Source of the DNA: Microbacterium sp. SA39
Lineage (GTDB): Bacteria > Actinomycetota > Actinomycetes > Actinomycetales > Microbacteriaceae
Direction: 5' to 3'
NCBI RefSeq assembly: GCF_000967865.1
Contig: NZ_JXRU01000034.1
Coordinates: 62,001-126,000 of the forward strand
Length of the DNA: 64,000 nt
The notes under the pieces are model-generated. The model worked only from the letters and a program-made list of their open reading frames with translations. It had not been told where the DNA came from and did no database searches. Below, in pieces: positions 21,324 to 45,732 of the stretch. A program made the translations under genes and the position numbers. Positions within the stretch are counted from its first letter, which is position 1; the number at the start of each line of letters is the position of its first letter.

Positions 21324-22271
21324 CTATGAGCTCTCCGACTCTCCGACCGACCGGCCCGACCCCCAGCCGTCGATGCCGAGGCGGCTGAACGGGATGCCCC
21401 GCACCACCCGTTTCCACGGGTGCTCCCCGAGCGACCACAGGAGCTTCTCGTCGAGGTCGAGCGCGAGGTCCTCGCATCCGACCGGCAGCGAGACCGGGTC
21501 ACGTTCCAGCGCATCGCGCCGGCCGCGCCAGAGGATGCCGGGACGCATCCGATCCGACTGCGAGACGAAGTGCTTGTCGCCCCACCGGACCGCGCCCTGC
21601 ATCGAGCGGATGCCGGGGGAGAAGTGCGCCTCCACCCCTTCGAAGCGCGCATCGTCGCCGTCGGGGATCGCGAACTCTCCGATCCGCCCCTTGTCGTCGG
21701 TGCGGTATTCGCCGATGAGGACCCGGCGCAGCGGCTCGCCGTTCTCGTCGAACACCCGCCCGAGGTAGGAGCAGCGGAGATCCACCGGGTGCACCTTCGT
21801 GCGCACCGCGACCATCGCGGTCGCCCGCCAGCCGCGCCCGCGTGAGCCGGCGAGACGGCGGGCCTCGGAGCCGCGCACGCGGCGGATGTCGGCGAGGTCG
21901 AACTCCCAGATGCCGCGTCCGGTCGCCGCGACGAACAGGCGGTCGTCGAACCAGGCGAGTCCGCCGGCGTGGATCGGAGCGGGCGCGAGCTCGCCGTCAT
22001 CGCCCTCCACGGCGAGCAGCACGTCGAGGTGTCGCGAGCGCTCCAGGTCAACGAAGGCGACGCGCGACGCGAGGTGCTTCCTGTTGCGGTCCTGCCGGAA
22101 CCAGCTCACGGCCAGGGTGCGGTGCCCCCGCCAGAGGCCGAGGTCGATCCCCTGCGGGTACCAGCGCTGCGTCCACGAGCGGGCGCTGAGCCAGCGCAGA
22201 TCCACGGTGTCGCGGCGCTTCTGGCGCACGGGGCGCCAGATCGATCCGAAAGGCCAGAGCATGCTGACCAT
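21324..22271 (-). CDS. Unrecognised protein, possible beta-propeller
   Basis: About 315 residues from the ATG at 22271; an ATG at 22262 or GTG/ATG codons up to 22349 are also possible, since no clear ribosome site distinguishes them. There is no signal peptide or membrane helix in this version. Short strands rich in Trp, Arg and Asp recur (GGLAWFDDRLFVAATGRG, DLRCSYLGRVFDENGEP, EDLALDLDEKLLWSLGEHP), which suggests a WD/propeller-like fold. Similar uncharacterised proteins exist in streptomycetes, to my recollection. No function is proposed. It is divergent from the ABC transporter at 22369. Confidence 0.65.
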   Translation of the reverse strand: MVSMLWPFGSIWRPVRQKRRDTVDLRWLSARSWTQRWYPQGIDLGLWRGHRTLAVSWFRQDRNRKHLASRVAFVDLERSRHLDVLLAVEGDDGELAPAPIHAGGLAWFDDRLFVAATGRGIWEFDLADIRRVRGSEARRLAGSRGRGWRATAMVAVRTKVHPVDLRCSYLGRVFDENGEPLRRVLIGEYRTDDKGRIGEFAIPDGDDARFEGVEAHFSPGIRSMQGAVRWGDKHFVSQSDRMRPGILWRGRRDALERDPVSLPVGCEDLALDLDEKLLWSLGEHPWKRVVRGIPFSRLGIDGWGSGRSVGESESS

Positions 22272-22368
22272 CGTCGCCGATCGGATCGCGCGATGCGAAC
22301 CGGCGCCGAAGACTTTCACTCTCACTCGTATATTGCTATGCCGCAGCACTGCTGTTTACCTGACGTGC

Positions 22369-24159
22369 ATGACCTCACACCCGCCGACATCGCGCGAAGT
22401 CTCGGTGACGAGGTTCTTCGCACTGATGAAGCCGGCGGCAGGGACCATCGCCGCAGCCACACTGCTGAGTGTGATCGCGGCCGCCGTCTCGCTCGTACAG
22501 CCGCTGGTCGTACGTGACGCCTTCGACCGCTTCGAACGGAGCGAGAGCCTCGGCGGGCTCGTTCCGGTGATCGTGGTCCTGTTCGTCTTGGAGGCCGCCC
22601 TCGGGGCACTCCTGACGTATCTTCTCGGTCGCAGTGGCGAGCGCATCGTCTTCGCTCTGCGGCGCACCATGGTCGGGCGTCTTCTGCGCTGGCCCGTCGC
22701 GAGCCACGAGCGCTTTGAAGTCGGCGACCTGATCTCGCGCGTGAACGCCGACACGGGTGCCATCCGCGGCGCCATCGCGACCAGCCTGAGCGAGTTCGTC
22801 TCGGGGATCGTCGTCTTCGTCGGTGCGGTCGTGCTGATGCTGTTCATCAGCCCACTCCTGCTCCTGGTCACGCTTGCCTGCCTCGCCGGTGCGGTCGTCA
22901 TCCTCCTCCTGGTCGCCACCGGAATCATGCTCGCGACCATGCAGTCGCAGACTGCTCTCGGCCGCCTCAGCGCCGGGCTGGAGAGCATTCTGCGAGGCGT
23001 CCGCACGGTGAAGTTGAACAACGCCGAACCCCGGGAAGCACAACGGCTCGGTGAGAGCCTTGATCAGACTCTGTCGGCCGGTGTCCGCCTGGCGAAACTC
23101 GAAGCGATGCTCTCGCCCGCGACGACGGTCGCCGTACAGGTCGCATTGATAGTCGTGCTGTGGATTGGAGGCGCTCGAGTTGCGACCGGCGAGCTCTCGC
23201 TTGGCGACCTGATCGCCTTCTTGCTGTACCTCCTCTATCTCGTCTTTCCGATGGCATCGATGTTCTCGTCGTTCACCAGCTTCCAAGCCGCGCGCGCAGC
23301 GCTCGCCCGCGTCGATGAGGTTCTGGACATCGAAACGGAGGCGATCGACGTCGAATTGGATGCCCCCCTGCCGACCCCTCGGGTCGTACCCCCGCTCGAG
23401 CGAAGCCCGGACCGTGATGGTCTCGGCGTCGAGGTCGTGCTGCGGGGCGTGAGCTTCTCCTATCCCCGGCGGCGCACCGTACGTGTTCTCGATGGCTTGG
23501 ATCTTCACGTCCCGCGTGGCTCGTGCGTCGCATTGGTCGGGCAGTCGGGTGGAGGCAAGTCGACGATCCTTACGCTCCTGGCACGCCTGTACGACGTCGA
23601 TTCCGGGGAGATCACCATCGGTGGGACTGACATCTCGCAGCTGCCGCTCCCGCAGCTACGTGGTCTCATCGGTTTCGTCGAGCAGGATTCACCCGTCATG
23701 AGCGGATCGATCGAGGACAACCTGCGTTACGGGGCGCCGAACGCCACTGACGTCGACATGCGGGATGCGCTGGAGAAGACGAACCTGTCGGATTTTGTAC
23801 GCGACCTGCCCGACGGCCTGGAAACCCAGATCGGCACCGGCGGCGTTCTGGTCTCCGGCGGTCTGCGGCAGCGCATCGCGATCGCTCGGGCGCTGCTCCG
23901 CAAGACCCCGCTGCTGCTCCTCGATGAGATCACGGCCAATATGGATGGCGAGAACGAAGGTCACCTGAATACAACGTTGGAGCGGCTGCGTGGAGATCAC
24001 ACGGTGATCATGGCGGCGCATCGTCTGTCGACGATGCGTCGTGCCGACGAGATCCACGTCGTGGCACGGGGAGAGGTCCTGGCGTCAGGGCGGCATGAGG
24101 ACCTGCTCAAGGAGTCGCTCGAGTACCGCTTGCTGGCGACGTCTCAGATCTTCGATTGA
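22369..24159 (+). CDS. ABC transporter, fused permease and ATPase (exporter half)
   Basis: 596 residues: six transmembrane helices (about 20-310) then a nucleotide-binding domain (about 355-590) with Walker A GQSGGGKST, signature VSGGLRQR (a variant of LSGGQ), Walker B LLLLDEITANMD and a switch His in AAHRLS. It should work as a homodimeric exporter of the MsbA/multidrug type. The next genes make a surface glycan, so glycan or lipid-linked precursor export is possible, but drug export is equally so. Third codon positions are visibly less GC-rich than in the neighbours and the upstream region is A/T-rich, hinting at acquisition. ATG at 22369 assumed; a GTG shortly after is possible. Confidence 0.85.
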   Translation: MTSHPPTSREVSVTRFFALMKPAAGTIAAATLLSVIAAAVSLVQPLVVRDAFDRFERSESLGGLVPVIVVLFVLEAALGALLTYLLGRSGERIVFALRRTMVGRLLRWPVASHERFEVGDLISRVNADTGAIRGAIATSLSEFVSGIVVFVGAVVLMLFISPLLLLVTLACLAGAVVILLLVATGIMLATMQSQTALGRLSAGLESILRGVRTVKLNNAEPREAQRLGESLDQTLSAGVRLAKLEAMLSPATTVAVQVALIVVLWIGGARVATGELSLGDLIAFLLYLLYLVFPMASMFSSFTSFQAARAALARVDEVLDIETEAIDVELDAPLPTPRVVPPLERSPDRDGLGVEVVLRGVSFSYPRRRTVRVLDGLDLHVPRGSCVALVGQSGGGKSTILTLLARLYDVDSGEITIGGTDISQLPLPQLRGLIGFVEQDSPVMSGSIEDNLRYGAPNATDVDMRDALEKTNLSDFVRDLPDGLETQIGTGGVLVSGGLRQRIAIARALLRKTPLLLLDEITANMDGENEGHLNTTLERLRGDHTVIMAAHRLSTMRRADEIHVVARGEVLASGRHEDLLKESLEYRLLATSQIFD

Positions 24160-24258
24160 CGAGCGCGACGCCCGAGACACCGCGCGTTCACCTCCGCGTC
24201 CCCGACAGGCAAGAAACGCCTGAGACCATGCGGCTCACCGCCGACCACCGGGAGATCT

Positions 24259-25239
24259 GTGCGCACGCCCCTCGTCACCGTCATCCTGCCCGCCAAAGAC
24301 GCCGGCGCGTACATCGGGACGACACTCGAGACGCTGACCCGTCAGTTCGACGACCCGGCCGCGCTCAAGCTCGTCGCGATCGACGACGGCTCGCGCGACG
24401 ACACGGGAACGCTCATGCAGCGGTACGCGGAGCGCTTCGGCAGCGCCGAGGTGATCCGCAATCCGAAGCCGCGCGGCCTGGCCAGCGCCCGCAACCAGGG
24501 CCTCGCGCATGTCGAGGGCGACGCGTTCTGCTTCCTCGACGGCGACGACTGGATGCAGCCGCGGCGGCTCGAGGTGCTGACCTCGCGACTCGCAGCCCTC
24601 GGCTGCGACTTCCTGCGCACCGACCACGTCACGGTGACCGAGGGGCGCCGTGCGATCGTCCGCGCCCCGCACCCGTGGCGTGAGCAGGCCACATCGCCGC
24701 GCCAGGCCATCCTCCCCGAGGACGAGCGGACGATGGTGGACTATCCCTTCGCCTGGGCAGGGATCTTCCATCGCCGGATCATCGATCGCGGCCTGGCCGC
24801 GTTCCCTCCCGGGCTGTTCACGGCTGAGGACCGGCCGTGGATCTGGAAGCTGCACCTGCAGGCCGAATCGTTCGCGGTCGTCGACGCTCCCGCTCTGCTC
24901 TACCGCCGCGGAGTCGCGACCTCGCTGACGCAGGCGCGGGACCGCCGCCAGCTCGACTTCGTGACCGCGATGGATCAGGTGCTCGACATCGTCGAACACG
25001 ATCACGAGGCCGAACGCTTCCGTGCCAAGGCGGTGTGGACGGCTCTGGCCCTGAGCTCCCGCCACCTCGTGCGTGCTCGCCGCATGCGGCCGGCCCTCCG
25101 CGCCGAGATGCGCGCCGGCATCCGTGACATGCTCGGCCGACTGCCCGCCCCCGAGGTGCGCGATGCGCTCGCGAGATTCGAGGGGTCGCGCCGCCGCGTT
25201 CTCGCGCGCATCCTGCGTCAGGCGGGGTGGGCGGCATGA
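24259..25239 (+). CDS. Family 2 glycosyltransferase
   Basis: 326 residues. The GT-A fold of family GT2 occupies about residues 1-210 with VTVILPAKDAG, the nucleotide-sugar Asp block AIDDGSRDDT and the metal site FLDGDDWM. The C-terminal part is Arg-rich and helical. GTG start with GGGAG just upstream. First gene of a five-gene nonulosonic-acid glycan cluster; its stop overlaps the next start (ATGA at 25236). It probably adds a sugar to the growing cell-surface polymer or to its linker. Confidence 0.88.
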   Translation: MRTPLVTVILPAKDAGAYIGTTLETLTRQFDDPAALKLVAIDDGSRDDTGTLMQRYAERFGSAEVIRNPKPRGLASARNQGLAHVEGDAFCFLDGDDWMQPRRLEVLTSRLAALGCDFLRTDHVTVTEGRRAIVRAPHPWREQATSPRQAILPEDERTMVDYPFAWAGIFHRRIIDRGLAAFPPGLFTAEDRPWIWKLHLQAESFAVVDAPALLYRRGVATSLTQARDRRQLDFVTAMDQVLDIVEHDHEAERFRAKAVWTALALSSRHLVRARRMRPALRAEMRAGIRDMLGRLPAPEVRDALARFEGSRRRVLARILRQAGWAA

Positions 25240-26594
25240 CCCAGCTCTTCGCGCTGCACAGCGCCTACGGTCTTGCGACCGCCGCCGCCGCGATCGACGC
25301 GGGGCTCCTCGGCGACCCGTCGGTGAAGAGCGCGGATCGCGTCCTCGTGCCGTTCACCTCCTCGCGGGTCCCTGAGACCACGGTCGGGATCGCCGCGGAT
25401 CCGGCTCTGCGCTCGCTGCGGCAGCGTTTCGATCGCGTGGAGGAACTCGAGGCGGTCCTCGGCCCGCTGCATCCGAGTTCCTGGGAGCCGGCCATCGGCG
25501 ATCTCCCGGTCCTCGAACGGCTGCTGACCCGGGCCTGGGGTCTTGATCCACACGATCTCGAGCTGTTCGTGCAGAGTCCGCAGGTGGCCCCCGCCCGCAC
25601 GCTGATGTCGCTGTTCCCGCATGCGCGCATCACGATCATCGGCGACGGGTTGATGACCTACTCGCCGATGCGGGTGCGGCTGCCGTACACGGTCGCCGCC
25701 CGCATCGAGCGGGTCGTGCACGCCGACGTCGTCCCCGGGGTGCGTCCGCTCGTCGGATCGCCGCGTGCCGAGGTCGTCCCCGTGCCGCCGGAGAGCTTCC
25801 GGGCGGTGCTCTTCGAGACGGATGCCGTCAAGAACGATGCCGCGCTCGATTCGGATCTTCCGACCGTGCTGGTTCTCGGGCAGTACCTCTCGGCGCTGGG
25901 TCTCATGACTCCCGCGGCGGAGATCGCCCTCCAGCGAGACATGATCGACCGAGCCGCCCGCTGGTCGCCACGGCGCATCGTCTTCAAGCCGCATCCGGCG
26001 GCCCCGCCGCTGCTGACCGACGCGGTGCGCGCGCGTGCCGAAGGGCACGGCATCGAGTTCGTCGAGTACCGCGGCGCGCTCGCCGCGGAGCTGCTCGCGG
26101 AAAGGCTCGACGCGGTGGCGGTCGTCGCGGGGTTCTCCACCGCCCTGCCGACTGTCCGCGCGCTCTTCGGCCGCAAGATCGGGGCGGCGGGCACCGAGGC
26201 CGTGCTCCGCGCGCTGTCCCCGTTCGAGAACAGCAACCGCATCCCGGCGACGATCGTCGACGCCCTCACCCGTGAGGACTCGCCGTACGCTGATCCGGAA
26301 CGACTGCAGCTGCTGGTCGACGCCGTCGGCTACGCGATGCAGCCGAAGATCGCGGGGCATCTGCGCGGGCGGGCCGAGGCTCTCCTGCACGGCCTCGATC
26401 CGGTCGAGCGCGATCGGTACTTCGCGCCGGAGCGGTTGTCTGCGCTGCGTCTGCCCGGCGCCCCGGAGGAGCGGATGCTGCATCGCGTGCTGCGCCCGGC
26501 CGGAGGGATCGGCAGGGTCGAGGAGTGGCGACTCACGGTCATCGGCGCCCAGCGGCGCGTGCGACGTGCGTGGCGAGTGATTCGAGGGAGATGA
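25236..26594 (+). CDS. Polysialyltransferase-family glycosyltransferase
   Basis: 452 residues, GT-B fold. The C-terminal half shows the two blocks used by bacterial sialyl/polysialyltransferases: the HP motif in IVFKPHPAAPPLL and the S motif in VVAGFSTALPT, with the nucleotide-side block ITIIGDGLMTY. Bacterial polysialyltransferases transfer sialic acid from CMP-sialate to a growing chain at the membrane's inner face. The gene lies directly before the CMP-sialate synthetase and overlaps the upstream GT2 stop (ATGA). The exact linkage and acceptor cannot be inferred. Confidence 0.85.
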   Translation: MTQLFALHSAYGLATAAAAIDAGLLGDPSVKSADRVLVPFTSSRVPETTVGIAADPALRSLRQRFDRVEELEAVLGPLHPSSWEPAIGDLPVLERLLTRAWGLDPHDLELFVQSPQVAPARTLMSLFPHARITIIGDGLMTYSPMRVRLPYTVAARIERVVHADVVPGVRPLVGSPRAEVVPVPPESFRAVLFETDAVKNDAALDSDLPTVLVLGQYLSALGLMTPAAEIALQRDMIDRAARWSPRRIVFKPHPAAPPLLTDAVRARAEGHGIEFVEYRGALAAELLAERLDAVAVVAGFSTALPTVRALFGRKIGAAGTEAVLRALSPFENSNRIPATIVDALTREDSPYADPERLQLLVDAVGYAMQPKIAGHLRGRAEALLHGLDPVERDRYFAPERLSALRLPGAPEERMLHRVLRPAGGIGRVEEWRLTVIGAQRRVRRAWRVIRGR

Positions 26595-26596
26595 CG

Positions 26597-27793
26597 ATGG
26601 CGGACAGCACGATCGCGAACAGCTCAGTGCCCGGACACGACGCAGAGCTACGGACGGTGGCGATCATCCCCGCGCGCGGCGGATCGAAGCAGGTGCCGCG
26701 CAAGAACGTGCAGCGAGTCGGCGGTATCCCGCTGATCGAGCGCGCGGTGCGGGCTGCGCTGGCCGCCGAGGGCGTGGATCTGGTCGTCGTGTCGACAGAC
26801 GACGCCGAGATCGCGGCGGTGAGCCGGGCCGCGGGCGCGCAGGTGGTCCGCCGGCCGGCAGAGATCTCCGGCGACACCGCGACCTCGGAGAGCGCGATCC
26901 TGCATGCCCTCGACGAGCTCGAGGCGCAGGGCGAGCAGGTCGACATCGTGGCCTTCCTGCAGGCGACGTCCCCGTTCATCCCGAGCGACGCCCTGTCGGC
27001 GGCGGTCGACGACGTCCGTGCCGATCGCGCCGACAGCGTCTTCTCGGCCTTCGAGACCTACGGATTCCTCTGGCGCCGTGACGACGCCGGTGCTGCTGTC
27101 GCGATCAACCACGATGCGGCGCATCGCCCTCGGCGACAGGATCGTGAGCCGCACCACCTCGAGACGGGCGCGTTCTATGTGTTCCGCGCCGACGGCTTCC
27201 GCGAGCATCGCCACCGGTTCTTCGGTCGCATCCGTCTGGCCGAGGTTCCCGAGTGGACCGCGATCGAGATCGACGACGAGCAGCAGCTCCGCATCGCCCG
27301 TACCCTGGCCGTGCTCCACGAGGCGCCGGAGTCGATCCCGGTCCGTGCCGTCGTCACCGACTTCGACGGCGTGCACACCGACGACACCGCGATCGTCGAC
27401 GCCGATGGAGGCGAGCGCGTGCGCGTCAGCCGTGAAGACGGCATGGGGGTGGCCCTGCTCCGGCGATCCGGCATCCCGATGCTGATCCTCTCCACCGAGG
27501 TCAATGCGGTGGTCCGGGCCCGCGCCGAGAAGCTCCGGGTCCCGGTGCTGCACGGCATCGACGACAAGGCGGCAGCACTCACGGACTGGGCAAGGGAGAA
27601 CGGAGTGGGCCTCGCTGACATCGCGTATCTCGGCAACGACGTCAACGACCTCGCCGCGATGCGCCTCGTGGGCTGGCCGATCGCCGTCGCGAACGCGCAT
27701 CCGCTGGTCCTCGAGGAGGCGCGTGTCGTCCTTCGTCGTCGTGGCGGGGAAGGCGCCGTCCGCGAACTCGTCGAACGGGTGTTGTCGAGCTGA
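26597..27793 (+). CDS. neuA: Acylneuraminate cytidylyltransferase fused to HAD phosphatase
   Basis: 398 residues in two domains. Residues 20-245 are a CMP-nonulosonate synthetase (AIIPARGGSKQVPRKN, then RPRRQDREPHHLETGAF). Residues 250-395 are a KdsC-like HAD phosphatase with all four motifs intact: D255-F-D257-G, ST at 299-300, Lys324, and GND at 346-348 with Asp351. It should both dephosphorylate a nonulosonate-9-phosphate and activate the product with CTP. Animal CMP-sialate synthetases have the same order but their HAD part is thought inactive as a phosphatase. Start at 26597 has GGGAG six bases upstream; the ATG at 26591 sits on the ribosome site itself. Confidence 0.92.
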   Translation: MADSTIANSSVPGHDAELRTVAIIPARGGSKQVPRKNVQRVGGIPLIERAVRAALAAEGVDLVVVSTDDAEIAAVSRAAGAQVVRRPAEISGDTATSESAILHALDELEAQGEQVDIVAFLQATSPFIPSDALSAAVDDVRADRADSVFSAFETYGFLWRRDDAGAAVAINHDAAHRPRRQDREPHHLETGAFYVFRADGFREHRHRFFGRIRLAEVPEWTAIEIDDEQQLRIARTLAVLHEAPESIPVRAVVTDFDGVHTDDTAIVDADGGERVRVSREDGMGVALLRRSGIPMLILSTEVNAVVRARAEKLRVPVLHGIDDKAAALTDWARENGVGLADIAYLGNDVNDLAAMRLVGWPIAVANAHPLVLEEARVVLRRRGGEGAVRELVERVLSS

Positions 27794-27888
27794 CCGCCGC
27801 CGGTAACCCTCCGGACGCACGGTGTTCACCCCCGGCGCGTACCCAGGAGGGAAGGGCCTCTCGAGGCCGTTCGACGACCGGAGGAATC

Positions 27889-28761
27889 ATGACTGTCAGC
27901 ATCGGCTCGCGGGTGATCGGCGGAGGCCGTCCCGCCTACGTCATCGCAGAGATCGGCCTGAACCACAACGGCGACGTCGACATCGCGAAGCGCCTGATCG
28001 ACGTCGCTGCCCGCGCCGGCGCCGACGCGGTGAAGTTCCAGAAGCGCACCCCGGAGATCTCCACGCCCGAGCACATGCGCGACGTCCCGCGTGAGACGCC
28101 GTGGGGCACCATGACCTACCTCGACTACCGTCGCCGCGTCGAGTTCGGCCGCGACGAGTACGTCGAGATCGGCGACCACGCCACGATGCTGGGTCTCGAC
28201 TGGTTCGCCTCGCCGTGGGATGTTCCGAGCGTCGGGTTCCTCGAGGAGCTCAACGTCGTCGCGCACAAGGTCGCCTCGGCGAGCCTCACCGACACCGAAC
28301 TGCTCGTCGCCCTGCGCGAGACCGGCAAGCCCGTCATCCTCTCGACCGGGATGTCGACGATCGAGCAGATCGATCGCGCGCTCGACACGCTCGGCACCGA
28401 CCGCGTGGTGCTGATGCACGCCACTTCGACGTACCCGCTGGAGCCGGAAGAGGCGAACCTCCGGGTGATCTCGACGCTCCGGGACCGCTACGCCGGTGTG
28501 CCGGTGGGCTACTCCGGCCACGAGCGCGGACTGCAGATCTCGCTCGCCGCGGTGGCCCTCGGGGCGGTCGCCGTGGAGCGCCACATCACGCTCGACCGCA
28601 CGATGTGGGGCTCCGACCACGCCGCCTCCCTGGAGCCGGCCGGTCTCGAGCACCTCGTTCGCGACATCCGCGTGATCGAGAAGGCGCTCGGCGACGGCGT
28701 CAAGCGGGTGTTCGACAGCGAGCGCGCGCCGATGGCGAAGCTCCGCCGCATCCCCGCATGA
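27889..28761 (+). CDS. neuB: Nonulosonate (sialic-acid type) synthase without SAF domain
   Basis: 290 residues forming the TIM-barrel part of NeuB/NANS: EIGLNHNG with Glu21, KFQK with Lys49, KVASA with Lys127, HATSTYP with His177, GYSGHERG with His211, and HITLDRTMWGSDH with His232 and Asp243. These catalyse condensation of PEP with a mannose-type sugar. The barrel blocks from HATSTYP to SLEP look more like animal NANS (which uses 6-phospho sugars) than NeuB of Neisseria. The C-terminal SAF/antifreeze-like domain (about 60-70 residues), which completes the partner's active site in the usual dimer, is absent: the protein ends at AKLRRIPA. GGAGG precedes the ATG. Confidence 0.92.
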   Translation: MTVSIGSRVIGGGRPAYVIAEIGLNHNGDVDIAKRLIDVAARAGADAVKFQKRTPEISTPEHMRDVPRETPWGTMTYLDYRRRVEFGRDEYVEIGDHATMLGLDWFASPWDVPSVGFLEELNVVAHKVASASLTDTELLVALRETGKPVILSTGMSTIEQIDRALDTLGTDRVVLMHATSTYPLEPEEANLRVISTLRDRYAGVPVGYSGHERGLQISLAAVALGAVAVERHITLDRTMWGSDHAASLEPAGLEHLVRDIRVIEKALGDGVKRVFDSERAPMAKLRRIPA

Positions 28762-30146
28762 CGGATGCCGCGGGCATCCGCGTCGTCGCGATCGCGGATG
28801 CCGATTCCTTCGTGAAGTGGTCGGCCGCGCTCCTCGGCGCGGTCCCGGGACTCCGGCCTCACCTCCTCCTGGTGCGCACGCCACTGACCGCGAGTGTCGC
28901 GCAGCAGCGCACGGCGGTCGCGGGCACGGGCCTGCAGCCGGAGGACATCACCCGGGTGAGCTTCGCCGAGACGGCGGGGTGGCTCGAGGGGCAGCGCCCC
29001 GACGTGGTGCTGCTCGCGGGTCGCGGGCCGTTCGTCCGGCTGATGGGACGCGTCATCGACTCGCTGACGCACCGCCCGGTGACCGTCTCCGGCCTCCCCG
29101 GCATGGCGATCCCCGCGCAGCGCGGAGCGCTGGACTACCGCCGGCACACCGATCTGCTCGTGGTGCACTCCCACCGCGAGGAGCGCGCGTTCGCCGAGCT
29201 CGGCGAACACATCGGCGTCTCGATGTCGACCGCGCTCGCCACCCTGCCGTTCGCGAGGAGACGTCAGCGGATGCTGCGCCCGGCGCGGGTCAGCATCGAC
29301 GCGCTCGCGGCGGGTGGCGGTGGCGTCGCCGTGGCCGAGCGGCCGCAGCAGCCGACCGCCGTCCGACGACCGGCCACCGACGTCGTGTTCGCGGCGCAGG
29401 CCCTCGTACCGGTCGCGCACGAGCACCGAGCCGAGATCGCGGCGATGCTGGTACGTGCGGCGGAGGCCGACCCGAACCGCCGCGTCGTGGTGAAGCTGCG
29501 CTCTCGCCCGGGGGAGTCCGAGACGCATCTCGAACGAGACCCCTACACGGCGCTCCTCCCGAGCCGCCGGCCGCGTAACCTCAGCTACTCGTACGACTCG
29601 ATGGCGACGGCGCTGGAGAGCGCAGCCGGTCTCGTCACGGTGAGCTCCACCGCGGCGATCGAGGCGACGGCCCTCGGCGTCCCGGTCATCGCCCTCGACT
29701 CCTTCGGGGTGAGTAAGAGCCTCCTCAACACGGTGTTCGTGGGCAGCGGCCTGCTCGGCGGCCGGAACGAGGTCGTGGCCGGCCGGTTCCGGCATCCGCA
29801 CCCGGACTGGCTCCGCGACAACTACTTTCACGCCGAGTCCGAGTCGAACTGGTGGCAGCGCGTGCAGGAGCTCGTGGCGATGCGCCGGGCGGGCGCGCTG
29901 CCGGCTCGGCGAGTGCCGTCTGCACGGGCCGGGATGCTGCATGACGCGTGGCACCGGGCGAGCGTGCTCGGGCGAGAGGACCGCTCGCTCAGCGGAAACC
30001 TGGCTCTGACCGTCGGTGCTCCGGCGACGCGCGTGCTGTCCGCCGTGCGGCGACGCCGTGAATCTCCCGACGGCGGCACCTGGGCCGACGCGTCGAGCGA
30101 CTTCACGCTCGAGCCGAACCCGTTCCACGACTCGATCCGGCGCTGA
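28758..30146 (+). CDS. DUF6716 putative glycosyltransferase
   Basis: 462 residues. The C-terminal half resembles a GT-B nucleotide-sugar domain: VVVKLRSRPGESETH and LVTVSSTAAIEATALGVPVIALDSFG carry the KxR and S-type motifs seen in polysialyltransferase-like enzymes. Linker region 170-215 is Pro/Arg-rich. The ATG at 28758 overlaps the neuB stop (ATGA), so both are coupled. Likely a second transferase for the nonulosonate polymer; reaction unknown. Confidence 0.82.
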   Translation: MTDAAGIRVVAIADADSFVKWSAALLGAVPGLRPHLLLVRTPLTASVAQQRTAVAGTGLQPEDITRVSFAETAGWLEGQRPDVVLLAGRGPFVRLMGRVIDSLTHRPVTVSGLPGMAIPAQRGALDYRRHTDLLVVHSHREERAFAELGEHIGVSMSTALATLPFARRRQRMLRPARVSIDALAAGGGGVAVAERPQQPTAVRRPATDVVFAAQALVPVAHEHRAEIAAMLVRAAEADPNRRVVVKLRSRPGESETHLERDPYTALLPSRRPRNLSYSYDSMATALESAAGLVTVSSTAAIEATALGVPVIALDSFGVSKSLLNTVFVGSGLLGGRNEVVAGRFRHPHPDWLRDNYFHAESESNWWQRVQELVAMRRAGALPARRVPSARAGMLHDAWHRASVLGREDRSLSGNLALTVGAPATRVLSAVRRRRESPDGGTWADASSDFTLEPNPFHDSIRR

Positions 30147-30232: not shown

Positions 30233-31012
30233 TCAGTTGCTGCGTTTGATCGCCCGCACTCCGACCACGAGTCCGACGACCGCCACAGCCAGCGCAGAGA
30301 CCCAGCCCCAGAGCACGGTCGGATCGCCGAGGTCTCCGGAGAACAGCGCGCGTTCGGCCTGCACGACCCAGTTCACCGGGTTGACCGCCGCGACCGCGCG
30401 CATCCATTCCGGGGCGTCGTCCAGCGGCAGCAGCATCCCCGAGAGGATCAGCAGCGGGAAGATGAGCGCCTGCTGCACGCCCCAGAACAGCCACTCCCGG
30501 TCCTTCGTCGCGAGCGCCAGCGAGTATGACAGCGATCCGAGGCCCACGCCGAACACGGCGAGCAGCGCGAGACCGATCAGCAGCCCGGGGATGTCGGCGG
30601 CGAAGCCGAACGGCCAGGCGATCAGCACGATCACGAGCGCCTGCACGACGATCGGCGTGATCTCCTTGAGCGCGCGGCCGACGAGCAGCGACGAACGGGC
30701 GAGCGGGGCGACAAGCGTGCGCTCGTGCGAACCGGTCATCATCTCGTACTGCAGGTTCGAGCCCGTCGCGCCGGTGCCGAAGAGCACGATCATGACGAGC
30801 ACGCCCGGCACGAACCAGGCGAGTGTCTCGCCCGCCGGCTCACCCGAGTCTCCGATCAGCAGGGGAGCGAACAGCCCGAGGAAGACCAGGGGCTGCAGCA
30901 GGCTGAAGATCAGCGTGAACGGGTCGCGCAGCACCGGCTTGAGCTCGCGGGTCAGCACGTTCCTGGTCTCGCGCGCGAGGTTCGGGCGCACGAGCGTGTC
31001 GATGGCGGTCAT
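30233..31012 (-). CDS. ABC-2 type permease (DrrB-like)
   Basis: 259 residues with six transmembrane helices, opening NVLTRELKPVLRDPFTLIF and containing the ABC-2 permease block NPVNWVVQAERALF. Pairs with the ATPase gene just upstream (start overlaps its stop by four bases), giving a DrrAB-type exporter. The substrate is likely a hydrophobic drug or natural product. Confidence 0.9.
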   Translation of the reverse strand: MTAIDTLVRPNLARETRNVLTRELKPVLRDPFTLIFSLLQPLVFLGLFAPLLIGDSGEPAGETLAWFVPGVLVMIVLFGTGATGSNLQYEMMTGSHERTLVAPLARSSLLVGRALKEITPIVVQALVIVLIAWPFGFAADIPGLLIGLALLAVFGVGLGSLSYSLALATKDREWLFWGVQQALIFPLLILSGMLLPLDDAPEWMRAVAAVNPVNWVVQAERALFSGDLGDPTVLWGWVSALAVAVVGLVVGVRAIKRSN

Positions 31013-32082
31013 GAGAGGACTCCTGTCCTGCGGTTATCGGATGTCTCGTGGTTCTCGGATGCGGAAGCGGCGGTCGCCGCATCGACTGCGGATGCTTCGG
31101 CTTCGGCATCCGTCCCCTCGCCGGCTTCCCGCAGGGTGCGTCCCGTCAACGCGAGGAACACGTCGTCGAGGGTGGGCGGCACACCGGTCGCCCGGGTGAC
31201 GGAGATCCCCGCCGCGTCGAGCTCGCGCACGACGATCGGCAGCAGCCGGTCGCCGTCCGGCACGGCGAGCGAGATGGCATCGCCGTCGAGCGTGACCTCG
31301 GCCGTGCTGAGGCGGGCGACCACCGGACGGGCGGATGCTGCGGCAGCGGCATCCGCGAATCCGAAGGTGAGCACGTCGCCGGCGAGCGTCGCCTTCAGGG
31401 CGGTCGCGCTGTCATCGGCGATGATGCGCCCCTTGTCCATGACCATGACCCGCTCGGCGTAGCGGTCGGCCTCTTCGAGATAGTGCGTGGTGAGGAACAC
31501 CGTCGTGCCGTGCTGCGTGCGCAGGTCGAGGATGTGCTCCCAGAGATTCGCCCGGCTCTGCGGGTCGAGACCGGTGGAGGGCTCGTCGAGGAAGATCAGC
31601 GGCGGCGCGTGCATCAGCCCGAGGGCGATGTCGAGTCGGCGCTTCTGTCCGCCGCTGAGCTGCTGCACGCTCCGCGTCGCGAAGGACGACAGATCGAGCG
31701 ACACGATGAGCTCGTCCGCCCGCCGCGCGCTGTCACGCTTCGACATCCCGTAGAACGAGCCCTGGCTGAGCAGCTCGTCGCGCACGCGCTGCGAGAAGCT
31801 GCCGCTGGTGAGTTGTCCGACGTAGCCGATGCGGGCGCGCACGCCCGCGGCATCCGTCCTGATGTCGTGGCCGACCACGCGGGCCGTGCCGGCCGTGGGT
31901 GGGATGAGGGTGGTGAGCACGCGGAGACTGGTGGACTTGCCGGCTCCGTTCGGACCGAGGAACGCGACGAGCTCGCCGCGCACCGCGGTGAAGGAGAGGT
32001 CGGTGACAGCTTCGACCTTCTTCTTCTTGACGGTGAAGACCTTGGTGAGGCCTTCGGTTTCGATGATGGTTTCGTTCGACAT
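31009..32082 (-). CDS. ABC transporter ATPase (DrrA-like)
   Basis: 357 residues from the ATG at 32082. Walker A GPNGAGKST, signature LSGGQKRRLDIA, Walker B LIFLDEPSTGLD and the H-loop TTHYLEEAD are intact, followed by the DrrA-type C-terminal extension. Energises the permease in the same operon. The ATG at 32082 has CGGAG nearby and a TATCGT box six bases upstream. Upstream in-frame extension runs through the operator and the divergent regulator's start, and is rejected. Confidence 0.92.
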   Translation of the reverse strand: MSNETIIETEGLTKVFTVKKKKVEAVTDLSFTAVRGELVAFLGPNGAGKSTSLRVLTTLIPPTAGTARVVGHDIRTDAAGVRARIGYVGQLTSGSFSQRVRDELLSQGSFYGMSKRDSARRADELIVSLDLSSFATRSVQQLSGGQKRRLDIALGLMHAPPLIFLDEPSTGLDPQSRANLWEHILDLRTQHGTTVFLTTHYLEEADRYAERVMVMDKGRIIADDSATALKATLAGDVLTFGFADAAAAASARPVVARLSTAEVTLDGDAISLAVPDGDRLLPIVVRELDAAGISVTRATGVPPTLDDVFLALTGRTLREAGEGTDAEAEASAVDAATAASASENHETSDNRRTGVLS

Positions 32083-32104
32083 GCTCCGACGATAAGAGGC
32101 AACC

Positions 32105-32121
32105 CGGACAGATTCTGTCCG
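32105..32121. promoter_or_regulatory. Palindromic operator between exporter and WYL regulator
   Basis: CGGACAGATTCTGTCCG is a 17-bp near-perfect palindrome (7-bp arms, ATT centre) in the 61-bp divergent region. The -10-like box CAATCT (32132-32137) of the regulator gene lies just right of it. The regulator at 32144 is the obvious ligand. Whether it represses or activates is unknown. Confidence 0.6.
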
Positions 32122-32143
32122 CATCATCTGACAATCTGGAGAC

Positions 32144-33130
32144 ATGTCCGACACCACCACCCGCGCTCTTGCCCTGCTCAACCTGCTGCAGACGCATCGA
32201 CACTGGCCGGGCACCGAACTGGCCACGCGCCTCGGTATCACCGAGCGCACGGTGCGCCGCGACGTCGATCGCCTCCGCGAACTCGGCTATCGGGTCGAAT
32301 CGACTCCCGGTGCCGCCGGCGGCTATCGGCTCGAAGCAGGGAGCGCGGTACCGCCGCTGCTGCTCACCGACGACGAAGCGGTGACGATGGCGATCGGGCT
32401 GCGGGTCGCGGCGACGCAGCAGCTCGTCGGCGGGCCCGAGGTCACGCTCACCGCACTCGCGAAGCTCGAACAGGTGCTGCCGCAGGCGCTGCGTCGTCGC
32501 GTGAACGCGCTCGCCGCATCCGTGCAGGCGCCGCGTATCGGAGAAGGTCCGGTCGTCTCGCCCGTGGTGCTCGGCGAGATCGCCCTCGCGACCCGCGACA
32601 CCGAGCGGCTGCGCCTGCGGTACGTGGATGCCACGGGGGAGGAGAGCATCCGCCGCATCGAGCCGCACGCGCTCGCGCCGTCGGGGCGCAAGTGGTTCCT
32701 GCTCTGCTGGGACCTCGACCGCGACGACTGGCGCACCTTCCGTGTCGACCGCATCGACGCGGTCGAGCACACGCGGGTGCTCTTCACCCGGCGCGAGATC
32801 ACCGAGGCCGAGATCGAGGAGCGCGTGCTCGTCGCATCGTCGTGGTCGCCGCAGAAGCTCGAAGGAGACGCGGTCATGGAGCTGTCGCTCGCCGAGATGC
32901 AGGAGTACTTCGGTCACTGGGCGCAGGGTGCGACGGCCGAGGATGCGACGCACACCCGCTGGCCGATCGGCGGCTCGGACTGGCGGGAGGCGATGTATGC
33001 GTACCTCTGGATCCCCGAGGGCGTCGAGTACTCGATGACCTTCCCCGAGCCGGCGCGCGCGGAACTCCGCGAGGCGGTGGAGCGGATGCTCAGGGCGCTG
33101 GATCGCCCGGAACCGGCTCCGCGGGGGTGA
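32144..33130 (+). CDS. WYL-domain transcriptional regulator (HTH_11)
   Basis: 328 residues: an N-terminal winged HTH (2-60, TELATRLGITERTVRRDVDRLRELGY), then the WYL domain (about 140-225, with FLLCWDLDRDDWRTFRVDRI) and a C-terminal WCX segment. YafY/DeoR-like regulators of this type sense ligands or nucleic acids. It is divergent from the DrrAB exporter across a palindrome, so exporter control is likely. The stop at 33128 overlaps the 3' end of the convergent membrane protein gene by 41 bases. Confidence 0.9.
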   Translation: MSDTTTRALALLNLLQTHRHWPGTELATRLGITERTVRRDVDRLRELGYRVESTPGAAGGYRLEAGSAVPPLLLTDDEAVTMAIGLRVAATQQLVGGPEVTLTALAKLEQVLPQALRRRVNALAASVQAPRIGEGPVVSPVVLGEIALATRDTERLRLRYVDATGEESIRRIEPHALAPSGRKWFLLCWDLDRDDWRTFRVDRIDAVEHTRVLFTRREITEAEIEERVLVASSWSPQKLEGDAVMELSLAEMQEYFGHWAQGATAEDATHTRWPIGGSDWREAMYAYLWIPEGVEYSMTFPEPARAELREAVERMLRALDRPEPAPRG

Positions 33131-34334: not shown

Positions 34335-35723
34335 TCAGTTCAGCGTGAACGTCGTCGTCTGCGTGTTGCCCGCGACGTCGTAGACGACCAGCGTGTTGGT
34401 GCCGGTCACCGTGCCGAACGTGCCCGGCTTGACGAAGTTGACGTCGGACCAGGCGTTGTTCGTGAGGTCCTTGACCTTGCCGTTGATCGTGACCTTGTCG
34501 ATCTTCCCGGCATCCGACAGCTTGAAGCTCACGAGGTCGTAGGCGCCGTCCGCGCCGACCGTGAACTTCTCGCCCGTCTTCACGGTCGCCTTCGGCGCGG
34601 TCGCGTCGATCGTGAAGGCGAACGACTTCGTCTGCGAGATCTTGCCCGTGACATCCTGCGAGTTGTACTTGACGGTGTACTCGCCATCGGCCAGAACGAC
34701 CGTCGCCGTGTGCGATGCGCTCGTACCGGTGACCGCGGTCTGCGTGCTCTTGACGAGCGTGCCGCCCTGGTAGATGTTGGCGACGATGCGCTTCAGCCCC
34801 GTGTCATCGGTTGCATCCACCTGCACGTTCAGCGCCGAGAACGGACCGGCGGTCGTGGGGGAGACGAGAGTGGCGGTGGGCTTGTGCACGTCCGGAATCG
34901 GCTCGAGGGTGATCGTGAAGGCGGGGTTCCAGAAGTAGTTCCACACTTCGGTCGAAGAGAACCAGTAGGCGCCGTCGCGCTCGGTCACGGAGAAGGCGCT
35001 GTTGTCGCCCGCGGTGACGTCGGCGACCCGGAAGCCAGCGGGAGGCGTGACCCGCACCCCGAGCTCGCCGGGGAGGTGACGGATGTACCCCGAGGGCTGG
35101 AACGCCTCGTAGGTGCCGGGCTGGAAGTCGTACTCCGTCGCCGGGTACCAGTCGTCGCCCGAGCCGAGCTCGACGGTCGCGAGTCCGGAGGCGGGCGACC
35201 CATCGACGTTCACGACGTTCGCGACGAGGCGCAGCGCCGACATGCCGATCAGGCGCTCCTCGCCGTCCGCGTCGATCTCGATGTCGAGCACGCCCTGCGG
35301 ACCGAAGTACTCGGCCGTCGCGAGGCGGGTGATCTCGGTCGCGTCCGTCACGCCGGTGGCGTCGAACAGCACCTCGCCGGGAGGGTTGTTCGGGTAGCCC
35401 AGGTAGAGCTTCGCCGGACCCACCGGGATGTCGGTGAAGCGGTAGAGACCATCGGCATCCGCGCTCAGGTAGTGCCGGGTGCCGTCGACGTCGATCAGCT
35501 GCGCCGCGTGCGAGGTGTTGAGGCGGTCGACGTCGCCGCTCGCGGCCGTCTTGCTCGTGTCGTACAGGCCGTCGGCATAGCGGTCGTCGAACCGCGTGAC
35601 CGTGAGCGAGCCGGTCGTGGCATCCGAGGCATTCGTGTCTTCGGCGAGCGCGGGCAGTGGCGCCGCGATCATGGCGGTGGCGAGGCCTGCGGCCGCCCAC
35701 CCCGTCATCCTGCTGATTCTCAT
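34335..35723 (-). CDS. Secreted protein with Ig-like C-terminal domains
   Basis: About 462 residues. A signal peptide (1-28, ending PLPALAED) is followed by a Thr/Asp-rich beta-structured region resembling SdrD B-like/carboxypeptidase repeats (TVTRFDDRYADGLYD, GLYRFTDIPVGP), then two Ig-like modules (about 280-460: KPTATLVSPTTAGPFSALNVQV and KFTVGADGAYDLVSFKLSD). No anchor is present, so it may be released or wall-associated. The ATG at 35723 is preferred because GGGG lies six bases upstream; an ATG at 35729 adds only MH. Adhesin or structural role is guessed, not shown. Confidence 0.82.
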   Translation of the reverse strand: MRISRMTGWAAAGLATAMIAAPLPALAEDTNASDATTGSLTVTRFDDRYADGLYDTSKTAASGDVDRLNTSHAAQLIDVDGTRHYLSADADGLYRFTDIPVGPAKLYLGYPNNPPGEVLFDATGVTDATEITRLATAEYFGPQGVLDIEIDADGEERLIGMSALRLVANVVNVDGSPASGLATVELGSGDDWYPATEYDFQPGTYEAFQPSGYIRHLPGELGVRVTPPAGFRVADVTAGDNSAFSVTERDGAYWFSSTEVWNYFWNPAFTITLEPIPDVHKPTATLVSPTTAGPFSALNVQVDATDDTGLKRIVANIYQGGTLVKSTQTAVTGTSASHTATVVLADGEYTVKYNSQDVTGKISQTKSFAFTIDATAPKATVKTGEKFTVGADGAYDLVSFKLSDAGKIDKVTINGKVKDLTNNAWSDVNFVKPGTFGTVTGTNTLVVYDVAGNTQTTTFTLN

Positions 35724-35882
35724 GTGCATCCCCAGTGTCGAGCATGGTGTTCAGCCGGACGGTCGCCGGCTCATTCCTGAACCTAGGCGGGCAGTATTCC
35801 GGTCTCCAGCGACTTCCCCCTTGTTCACCGAGCCTTCAGATCCGGCGCCCTCGCGTTCACCTGGCGTCCACGGGCGCCCAGG

Positions 35883-44873: not shown

Positions 44874-44889
44874 CTGGCAGTATGTGCGT

Positions 44890-45732
44890 ATGAACGCGCA
44901 CAGCTGGACCACGACGCTGCGGGTCTCCGACGGTTTCCGCCTCGCCGACGTCGACCCGGAGAGCAAGCCCGGCTACGACAAGGGCAAGGCGCGCGGCACC
45001 GAGGATCTGGCCGCCGGACTCGAGAAGCTGAACGAGCTGCAGGAGCGGCTGTTCGCCGAGAGCCGCGTCGGCGTCACGAAGGACTCCGTGCTCCTCGTGC
45101 TCCAGGCGATGGACTCCGCGGGCAAGGGAGGGATCGTGCGGCACGTGGTCGGCGGCGTCGATCCGCAGGGCGTTCTGCTCACGGCCTTCAAGGCTCCGAC
45201 GGACGAGGAGCGCGAGCACGACTTCCTGTGGCGCATCGAGAGGCGCCTGCCGGAGCCCGGATTCATCGGGGTCTTCGATCGTTCCCACTACGAGGACGTC
45301 CTGATCGGACGCGTGCGCGAACTCGCGGACCCCTCCGAGATCGAGCGCCGCTACGAGGCGATCAACGCGTTCGAGGCGAAGGTGGCGGCATCCGGCACGC
45401 GGATCGTGAAGGTCATGCTCCACATCTCGCCCGACGAGCAGAAGTCCCGCCTCATGGAGCGCCTCGAGCGCCCGGACAAGCACTGGAAGTACAACCCGGG
45501 CGATGTGGACGAGCGGATGCGGTGGCCCGAGTACATGGAGGCCTATCAGACCGTCTTCGAGCGCACCTCGACCGAGGTCGCGCCGTGGTACGTCGTGCCG
45601 GCGAACTCGAAGTGGTTCGCGCGGCTGGCCGTGCAGGAGCTGCTGCTCGCCGCGCTCGAGGACATCGATCCGCAGTGGCCCGCCGCAGACTTCGACATCG
45701 AGGCCGAGAAGAAGCGCCTCGCCGCGAGCTGA
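44890..45732 (+). CDS. ppk2: PPK2-family polyphosphate kinase
   Basis: 280 residues. Walker A-like LQAMDSAGKGGIVRHV, then GVFDRSHYEDVLIGRV and HISPDEQKSRLMERL are typical of PPK2 enzymes that use polyphosphate to phosphorylate nucleotides. One PPK2 domain is present. The ATG at 44890 follows CAGTAT by six bases; a GTG at 44884 would add two residues. It converges with menF across a long palindromic repeat. Confidence 0.93.
   Translation: MNAHSWTTTLRVSDGFRLADVDPESKPGYDKGKARGTEDLAAGLEKLNELQERLFAESRVGVTKDSVLLVLQAMDSAGKGGIVRHVVGGVDPQGVLLTAFKAPTDEEREHDFLWRIERRLPEPGFIGVFDRSHYEDVLIGRVRELADPSEIERRYEAINAFEAKVAASGTRIVKVMLHISPDEQKSRLMERLERPDKHWKYNPGDVDERMRWPEYMEAYQTVFERTSTEVAPWYVVPANSKWFARLAVQELLLAALEDIDPQWPAADFDIEAEKKRLAAS

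Follow-up and report, generated by a model that had tools for sequence, protein, structure and literature searches.

The wall polymer of Streptomyces is described in two reports as composed of galactose and ketodeoxynonulosonic acid (Kdn) and as free of phosphate (PMC11481543; PMC7831098). In S. coelicolor, SCO4873-4882 are presented as teichulosonic-acid genes under PhoP control in a third (PMC13011467). A five-gene cluster of Microbacterium sp. SA39 (Microbacteriaceae) resembles the core of this region. The cluster lies at positions 24259-30146 of the window, the whole 64,000-nucleotide stretch of DNA that was analyzed (contig NZ_JXRU01000034.1, positions 62,001 to 126,000 of the forward strand). 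It encodes a GT2-family glycosyltransferase, a polysialyltransferase-like (PST-like) enzyme, a NeuA fused to a HAD phosphatase domain, a short NeuB, and a DUF6716 protein. The cluster is probably the counterpart, in Microbacterium, of the teichulosonic-acid core of other actinobacteria, which would here use a Kdn route, produce a phosphate-free wall polymer, and respond to phosphate starvation.

Other described systems share parts of this set. The Kdn pathway of Bacteroides thetaiotaomicron (the synthase BT1714, a Kdn-9-phosphate phosphatase, and a CMP-Kdn synthetase) comprises the same three steps predicted here. The two are also connected by the HAD domain of the window, which matches the phosphatase model NF058599 and PDB entry 3e81, the Bacteroides enzyme. 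Unlike in B. thetaiotaomicron, the phosphatase in the window is fused to NeuA, and transferases and Pho-like repeats are added. Both halves of the fused NeuA have vertebrate-type PDB matches, 1qwj and 3ewi, which are parts of one protein, the CMP-sialate synthetase CMAS. The C-terminal HAD domain of vertebrate CMAS is inactive, whereas the catalytic residues of the window protein are intact. The NeuA and NeuB families are also common to the canonical bacterial neuABC systems, but the window system has no NeuC and no SAF domain and has an added phosphatase.

Open reading frames and Pfam matches agree on the five genes and their positions, as proposed by the sequence-only reading, an earlier annotation made without database searches. 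All are on the forward strand. The GT2 enzyme (326 residues; 24259..25239) matches PF00535 Glycos_transf_2 at 2.6e-26, and the PST-like glycosyltransferase of GT-B fold (25236..26594) matches PF07388 A-2_8-polyST at 2.2e-14, with an alternative GTG start at 25227. The bifunctional NeuA-HAD protein follows (400 residues; 26591..27793; CTP_transf_3 at 1.5e-23 plus NF058599), in an open reading frame that opens mechanically at 26525. NeuB, a predicted Kdn-9-phosphate synthase of 290 residues (27889..28761), matches PF03102 at 4.5e-79. The DUF6716 protein, a predicted glycosyltransferase of 462 residues (28758..30146), matches PF20471 at 1.3e-122 in a frame that opens mechanically at 28101. The three ATGA overlaps claimed earlier are present at 25236 (GT2/PST-like), 26591 (PST-like/NeuA), and 28758 (NeuB/DUF6716), and 95 bases separate NeuA from NeuB. 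Codon-position G+C supports forward-strand coding for GT2, PST-like, NeuA, and NeuB; this filter is crude and greedy and does not list the DUF6716 frame, whose mechanical start overlaps NeuB. The DUF6716 protein is 89-90% identical to its counterparts in Microbacterium sp. TPD7012, K24, and EST19A.

NeuB belongs to a class of uniform length without a SAF domain. In a comparison of 101 loci (handles beginning with L are our own), including two copies of the window's own, NeuB has 289-300 residues in 98 of the 99 others, and the sole exception is cut by a contig end. Pfam finds no SAF match in the window NeuB. When 12 short and nine long NeuBs are aligned, Pfam matches SAF in 9 of the 21 without naming the members, and the alignment shows a SAF-like tail solely in the nine long proteins. 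In meningococcal NeuB, Arg314 of the SAF domain contacts N-acetylmannosamine (ManNAc) and the R314A variant is inactive (PMC6795526). A Kdn-9-phosphate synthetase specific for mannose-6-phosphate is known from an alga, as stated in PMC6200933. A plasmid of Methylomagnum shows the same pairing in unfused form, with a HAD-IIIA gene of its own behind a NeuB of similar length (61% identity). Among 249 genomes of the family, a first group of NeuB matches, at 69% identity or more, occurs in 69 (the window's own genome included, and two of them as fragments), and a second group at 32-47% identity occurs in 30, six of which also have the first kind.

The supply of precursors was searched for in the whole genome (3.86 Mb in 39 contigs, completeness stated as 100). 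No match to NanE and no NeuC were found. The sole Epimerase_2 protein, encoded on another contig, is of the wecB type, scoring 245 bits against TIGR00236 (wecB; cut-off 210.15) and 70.9 bits against TIGR03568 (NeuC; cut-off 235.9). The absence of neuC noted earlier at the cluster thus extends to the genome within the reach of these searches, which also bears on a complete neuC-type pathway elsewhere, named by the sequence-only reading as contradicting its view. Because NanE is unmatched and the only epimerase is of the wecB type, mannose-6-phosphate is the likely partner of phosphoenolpyruvate (PEP), and the short NeuB would convert the two to Kdn-9-phosphate. Two sugar options had been offered earlier. 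Kdn made from mannose-6-phosphate is favored by the short SAF-less NeuB and the fused 9-phosphate phosphatase, whereas an externally supplied ManNAc-phosphate is disfavored, as no source of ManNAc or ManNAc-6-phosphate was found in these searches.

The earlier assignment of the third gene to the NeuA family stands, but its description as a plain NeuA overlooked a C-terminal HAD domain of the KdsC/Kdn-9-phosphate phosphatase type. Residues ~15-240 form the CMP-nonulosonate synthetase and residues ~246-400 the HAD half, which matches NF058599 at 5.3e-31 (107.9 bits). Its best PDB match is 3mmz (5.9e-48), and 3e81 is matched at 1.4e-24. The HAD catalytic motifs DFDG, ILSTE, DDK, and GNDVND are intact, as is the GGEGAVRE tail. 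A 9-phosphate phosphatase would be needed if NeuB acted on a 6-phosphate sugar. The HAD half is predicted to release Kdn from Kdn-9-phosphate, and the synthetase half may then activate it to CMP-Kdn. Among the 94 NeuA reading frames of loci L003-L101, 88 have at least 360 residues. Strict patterns of motif I and motif IV are found in 85 and 83 of these 88; the lower count for motif III (66/88) is at least partly explained by a pattern that is too tight. Length is no proof of a HAD domain, since L031 reads NeuA straight into NeuB. In that locus, NeuA has no HAD domain and its frame continues uninterrupted into NeuB, and the two may be fused.

The PST-like enzyme scores 54.2 bits against PF07388 (gathering score 23.3). 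Its structural model (pLDDT 92.5) is closest to a bacterial polysialyltransferase, 5wc6/5wcn, with Z 17.9 and an rmsd of 4.7 over 311-313 aligned residues, and the next rows of the ranking stand at Z 13.3. Across 56 sequences, G141, H256, and P257 do not vary and D140 hardly does; as motif residues, they bear on the predicted transfer of a CMP-activated nonulosonic acid. PDB sequence searches with the PST-like and DUF6716 proteins gave weak unrelated matches only. The Pfam family text describes DUF6716 as a putative glycosyltransferase, and we infer the same function for the protein of the window. The PST-like, DUF6716, and GT2 enzymes would together assemble a wall polymer that contains Kdn and no phosphate, on a carrier, with the order of transfer and the attachment likewise being part of the proposal.

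The gene set is conserved beyond what chance would give. The synteny search suggested by the sequence-only reading recovered all five genes together in 62 of the 70 genome-contig loci found through DUF6716. Five of the eight incomplete loci (L044, L049, L074, L075, and L101) stop at a nearby contig end, and L092, L094, and L100 have no GT2 and PST matches. Of 20 further loci from the family, L153, from the same genus, holds all five genes. In the other 19 (L154-L172), NeuB and DUF6716 are adjacent; two of these loci are of the same genus by kinship and the rest are from other genera, and in L155 the NeuA cytidylyltransferase is unmatched. DUF6716 and the short NeuB occur together in 67 of the 249 family genomes, NeuB alone in 2, DUF6716 alone in 1, and neither in 179. 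In a sample of the phylum, some NeuB match was found in 57 of 396 genomes. A literature search, limited mostly to non-subscription journals, listed no title on such a cluster in Microbacteriaceae. Two minor observations concern copy number. At L138 and L139, the same NeuA-NeuB genes have two copies of DUF6716 nearby. One genome (G164) has two short NeuBs: in L155, NeuB stands beside DUF6716, and in L145 it is near an opposite-strand NeuA-HAD gene, without DUF6716.

The same five families occur outside the Microbacteriaceae. In a group of nine large genomes (6-10 Mb) of one genus, which are Streptomyces-like by an inferred assignment, PST, GT2, DUF6716, the NeuA half, and the short NeuB are present in 10 of 10 loci. 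Eight of them also have the HAD half; the two without it, L132 and L148, belong to a single genome. NeuB is unmatched in at least two listed genomes of the Streptomyces-like genus. PST and GT2 are on one strand and DUF6716, NeuA, and NeuB on the other, whereas the Microbacterium cluster is one collinear run with other neighbors and a predicted polymer. In Nonomuraea gerenzanensis, NeuA-HAD, NeuB, GT2, and PST are in line, with DUF6716 adjoining on the opposite strand. By comparison with these genomes, the five-gene set of a Kdn teichulosonic-acid cluster is present in the window. The order in the Streptomyces-like loci fits SCO4877-4881, the core of the SCO4873-4882 region of S. coelicolor, matched through published gene tables. 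One table lists SCO4877 as hypothetical, SCO4878 as a glycosyltransferase (GT2), SCO4879 as conserved hypothetical, SCO4880 as a transferase, and SCO4881 as polysaccharide biosynthesis (PMC2267785). The table of PMC8269224 likewise fits for SCO4877-4879, but gives "sialic acid synthase" for SCO4880. These parallels lend support to the earlier guess of a wall polymer.

Repeats resembling PHO boxes precede two of the genes. In S. coelicolor, the PHO box is described as having GTTCACC as its conserved motif (PMC4415409), and a canonical PHO box is defined as two or more such repeats (PMC7244524). On the forward strand 5' of GT2 (24175..24203), 7-mer units begin at 24175, 24186 (GTTCACC), and 24197. 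In the NeuA-NeuB gap (27802..27830, also forward), units begin at 27802 (GGTAACC), 27813 (GGACGCA, weak), and 27824 (GTTCACC). The spacing is 11 nucleotides at both sites. GTTCACC alone was rejected as a mark of Pho control because it is over-represented in the window; the 11-nucleotide phase, conservation, and position were used instead. A fixed rule, by which two 7-mers 11 apart must agree with GTTCACC at 11 or more of their 14 positions and one of them at 6 or more of its 7, holds 5' of GT2 in 59 of 62 Microbacterium-type loci, including the window, and 5' of NeuB in 27 of 65. In loci without an adjacent GT2/PST, it holds 5' of NeuA in 6 of 18 (L156, L160, L161, L164, L167, and L171), which come from four other genera, three of the six being from one genus. 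As controls, it holds in ~2% of random windows, at three positions inside the cluster in 0/65, 0/62, and 0/19, and 5' of eight flanking genes in 4/235.

The 11-nucleotide phase of the GT2 and NeuB upstream units is conserved in relatives. When a redundancy-reduced set is anchored on GTTCAY, the best offsets besides 0 are -11, +11, and +22 for GT2 (52 of 54 anchored) and -22 and -11 for NeuB (35 of 38 anchored). In 5 of 10 listed Streptomyces-like loci, GTTCAC copies are 22 apart. The exact pattern GTTCAYN5GTTCAY has three copies in the SA39 genome and none reversed. One copy precedes a pstS-like gene, whose probable GTG start lies ~90-105 bases further on; this gene scores 194 bits, less than the curated cut-off (205). 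Because repeat conservation, phase, position, and the pstS site are taken together, Pho (phosphate-starvation) control of the cluster is likely, as predicted from these sequence features. PhoP control is reported for the S. coelicolor region, as cited above, and the Microbacterium loci have PHO-like repeats. The repeats 5' of GT2 and NeuB would mediate induction in phosphate starvation, with the product replacing phosphate-rich teichoic acid. The genome also contains TagF-type (PF04464) and LCP genes, so the wall may alternate between polymers rich in phosphate and polymers free of it. Of the other two exact copies, one (L151:1501-1517) directly precedes a nucleotidyltransferase-like gene, and the other (L152:1501-1517) lies inside, or immediately ahead of, an SGNH-hydrolase-like gene (genes named by eye).

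Several results weigh against a Pho-controlled Kdn wall-polymer cluster. The NF058599 score of the HAD half falls under the curated cut-off of 180. Some relatives with a short NeuB have no HAD domain (e.g., L009 and L028) or a degenerate one that has lost catalytic residues (L022, L026, and L138), which shows that the cluster type can do without the fused phosphatase. The decayed domain of these relatives resembles that of CMAS. None of the 19 loci L154-L172 has a GT2/PST match within the stretch beside NeuB. The NeuB upstream site of the window itself fails the fixed rule, and Streptomyces-like loci conform to this rule just once in nine at each of two genes. GTTCACC occurs 22 times in the window where 5.7 are expected, and the binomial values calculated for the repeats overstate the case because the Microbacterium loci are related. 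In addition, the tables disagree on SCO4880, where NeuA is expected, so the assignment of SCO numbers to the last parts is provisional.

The nature of the product and of its sugar could also be explained differently. No polymerase, flippase, ligase, or primer enzyme is found by Pfam among the cluster genes, and this absence, also a point against a wall polymer, would suit a capsule, a secreted polysaccharide, or a glycoprotein glycan. Polysialyltransferase-like enzymes are typical of capsules. However, the same five families are found in the Streptomyces-type wall-polymer region and in Nonomuraea, and LCP genes are present elsewhere in the SA39 genome, which makes a product not linked to the wall unlikely. 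For the sugar, N-acetylneuraminic acid (Neu5Ac) or another N-acyl nonulosonic acid would result if NeuB used ManNAc-6-phosphate, as in the mammal-like route, from an enzyme outside the cluster. The fused phosphatase suits ManNAc-6-phosphate as well as mannose-6-phosphate, and the human synthase accepts both according to PMC7845648. NanE is present in 10 of the 69 short-NeuB genomes, which counts against Kdn; however, it is present in 25 of the other 180 family genomes, so there is no association (Fisher p = 1). With NanE unmatched in SA39, an epimerase of the wecB type only, a NeuB without SAF, Kdn polymers described for Streptomyces walls in PMC11481543 and PMC7831098, and the gene set of the window also present in the Streptomyces-like genomes, an N-acyl sugar is quite improbable.

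The structural model of DUF6716 raises a related alternative, in which this protein is a divergent UDP-GlcNAc 2-epimerase, a hidden NeuC that supplies ManNAc, instead of a glycosyltransferase. The model (pLDDT 87.4) has a GT-B fold, and its nearest structures are UDP-GlcNAc 2-epimerases (Z 19.9, rmsd 3.6, 300 aligned). NeuC itself follows at Z 17.5, next to the first match named a glycosyltransferase at 17.6. Nevertheless, function does not follow from a common GT-B fold, and the Z values differ by ~2. When DUF6716 is aligned by hand with the genome's own wecB protein, the catalytic acids of the GD, MEAG, and PEE motifs are matched by R89, G112, and residues that are not acidic. The apparent absence of these acids is why DUF6716 is read as a glycosyltransferase. 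Furthermore, HHalign finds no relation between DUF6716 and the wecB protein (Prob 0.05), the Pfam text points to a glycosyltransferase, and ManNAc made in this way would need no 9-phosphatase. A hidden NeuC is thus highly improbable, and Kdn made from mannose-6-phosphate is the preferred route.

A broader proposal is advanced tentatively. The short NeuB, HAD-fused NeuA, and DUF6716 may constitute a dedicated, Pho-regulated, phosphate-sparing module for Kdn wall polymers that is widespread in Microbacteriaceae and shared across Actinomycetota. DUF6716 would then be a new family of CMP-Kdn-dependent glycosyltransferases, and the fused phosphatase would have decayed repeatedly, parallel to vertebrate CMAS. 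To our knowledge, no tested function of DUF6716 has been reported; the family becomes a candidate Kdn-handling transferase. The Streptomyces-type gene set is already known, and what is new is the NeuA-phosphatase/short-NeuB marker of Kdn, its almost complete co-occurrence with DUF6716, and, for Microbacteriaceae, the prediction that phosphate controls the cluster. If Kdn is the product, roughly one in four of the Microbacteriaceae genomes sampled (69/249) should make it, probably when phosphate is scarce. A SAF-less NeuB beside a KdsC-type phosphatase could serve as a simple genomic marker that separates Kdn makers from Neu5Ac makers. In Bacillus, the wall polymer is tied to phosphate nutrition. 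A comparable link is reported for Streptomyces (PMC13011467), and Microbacteriaceae would be one more family with it.

The transport genes on either side of the cluster are probably not part of it. The MsbA-like ABC exporter at 22231-24159 sits between the flank genes and the cluster, and it was rejected as a member, as close relatives that share the flanks have no copy there. The ABC-2 genes at 30233-32250 were considered as a polymer exporter and rejected; they are probably unlinked because they are not beside the cluster in Microbacterium species that carry it elsewhere. Among the long-class NeuBs, those of L125, L146, and L147 have 630-641 residues, and three of the 21 aligned NeuBs, presumably the same three, match the AP_endonuc_2 TIM barrel of Pfam. 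Within the window, two GTTCACC copies 32 bases apart (35823-35861) are found in the intergenic stretch 5' of a minus-strand gene (34335-35729) with no Pfam match at E 1e-4. A gene for polyphosphate kinase 2 (PPK2) is located at 44884-45732.

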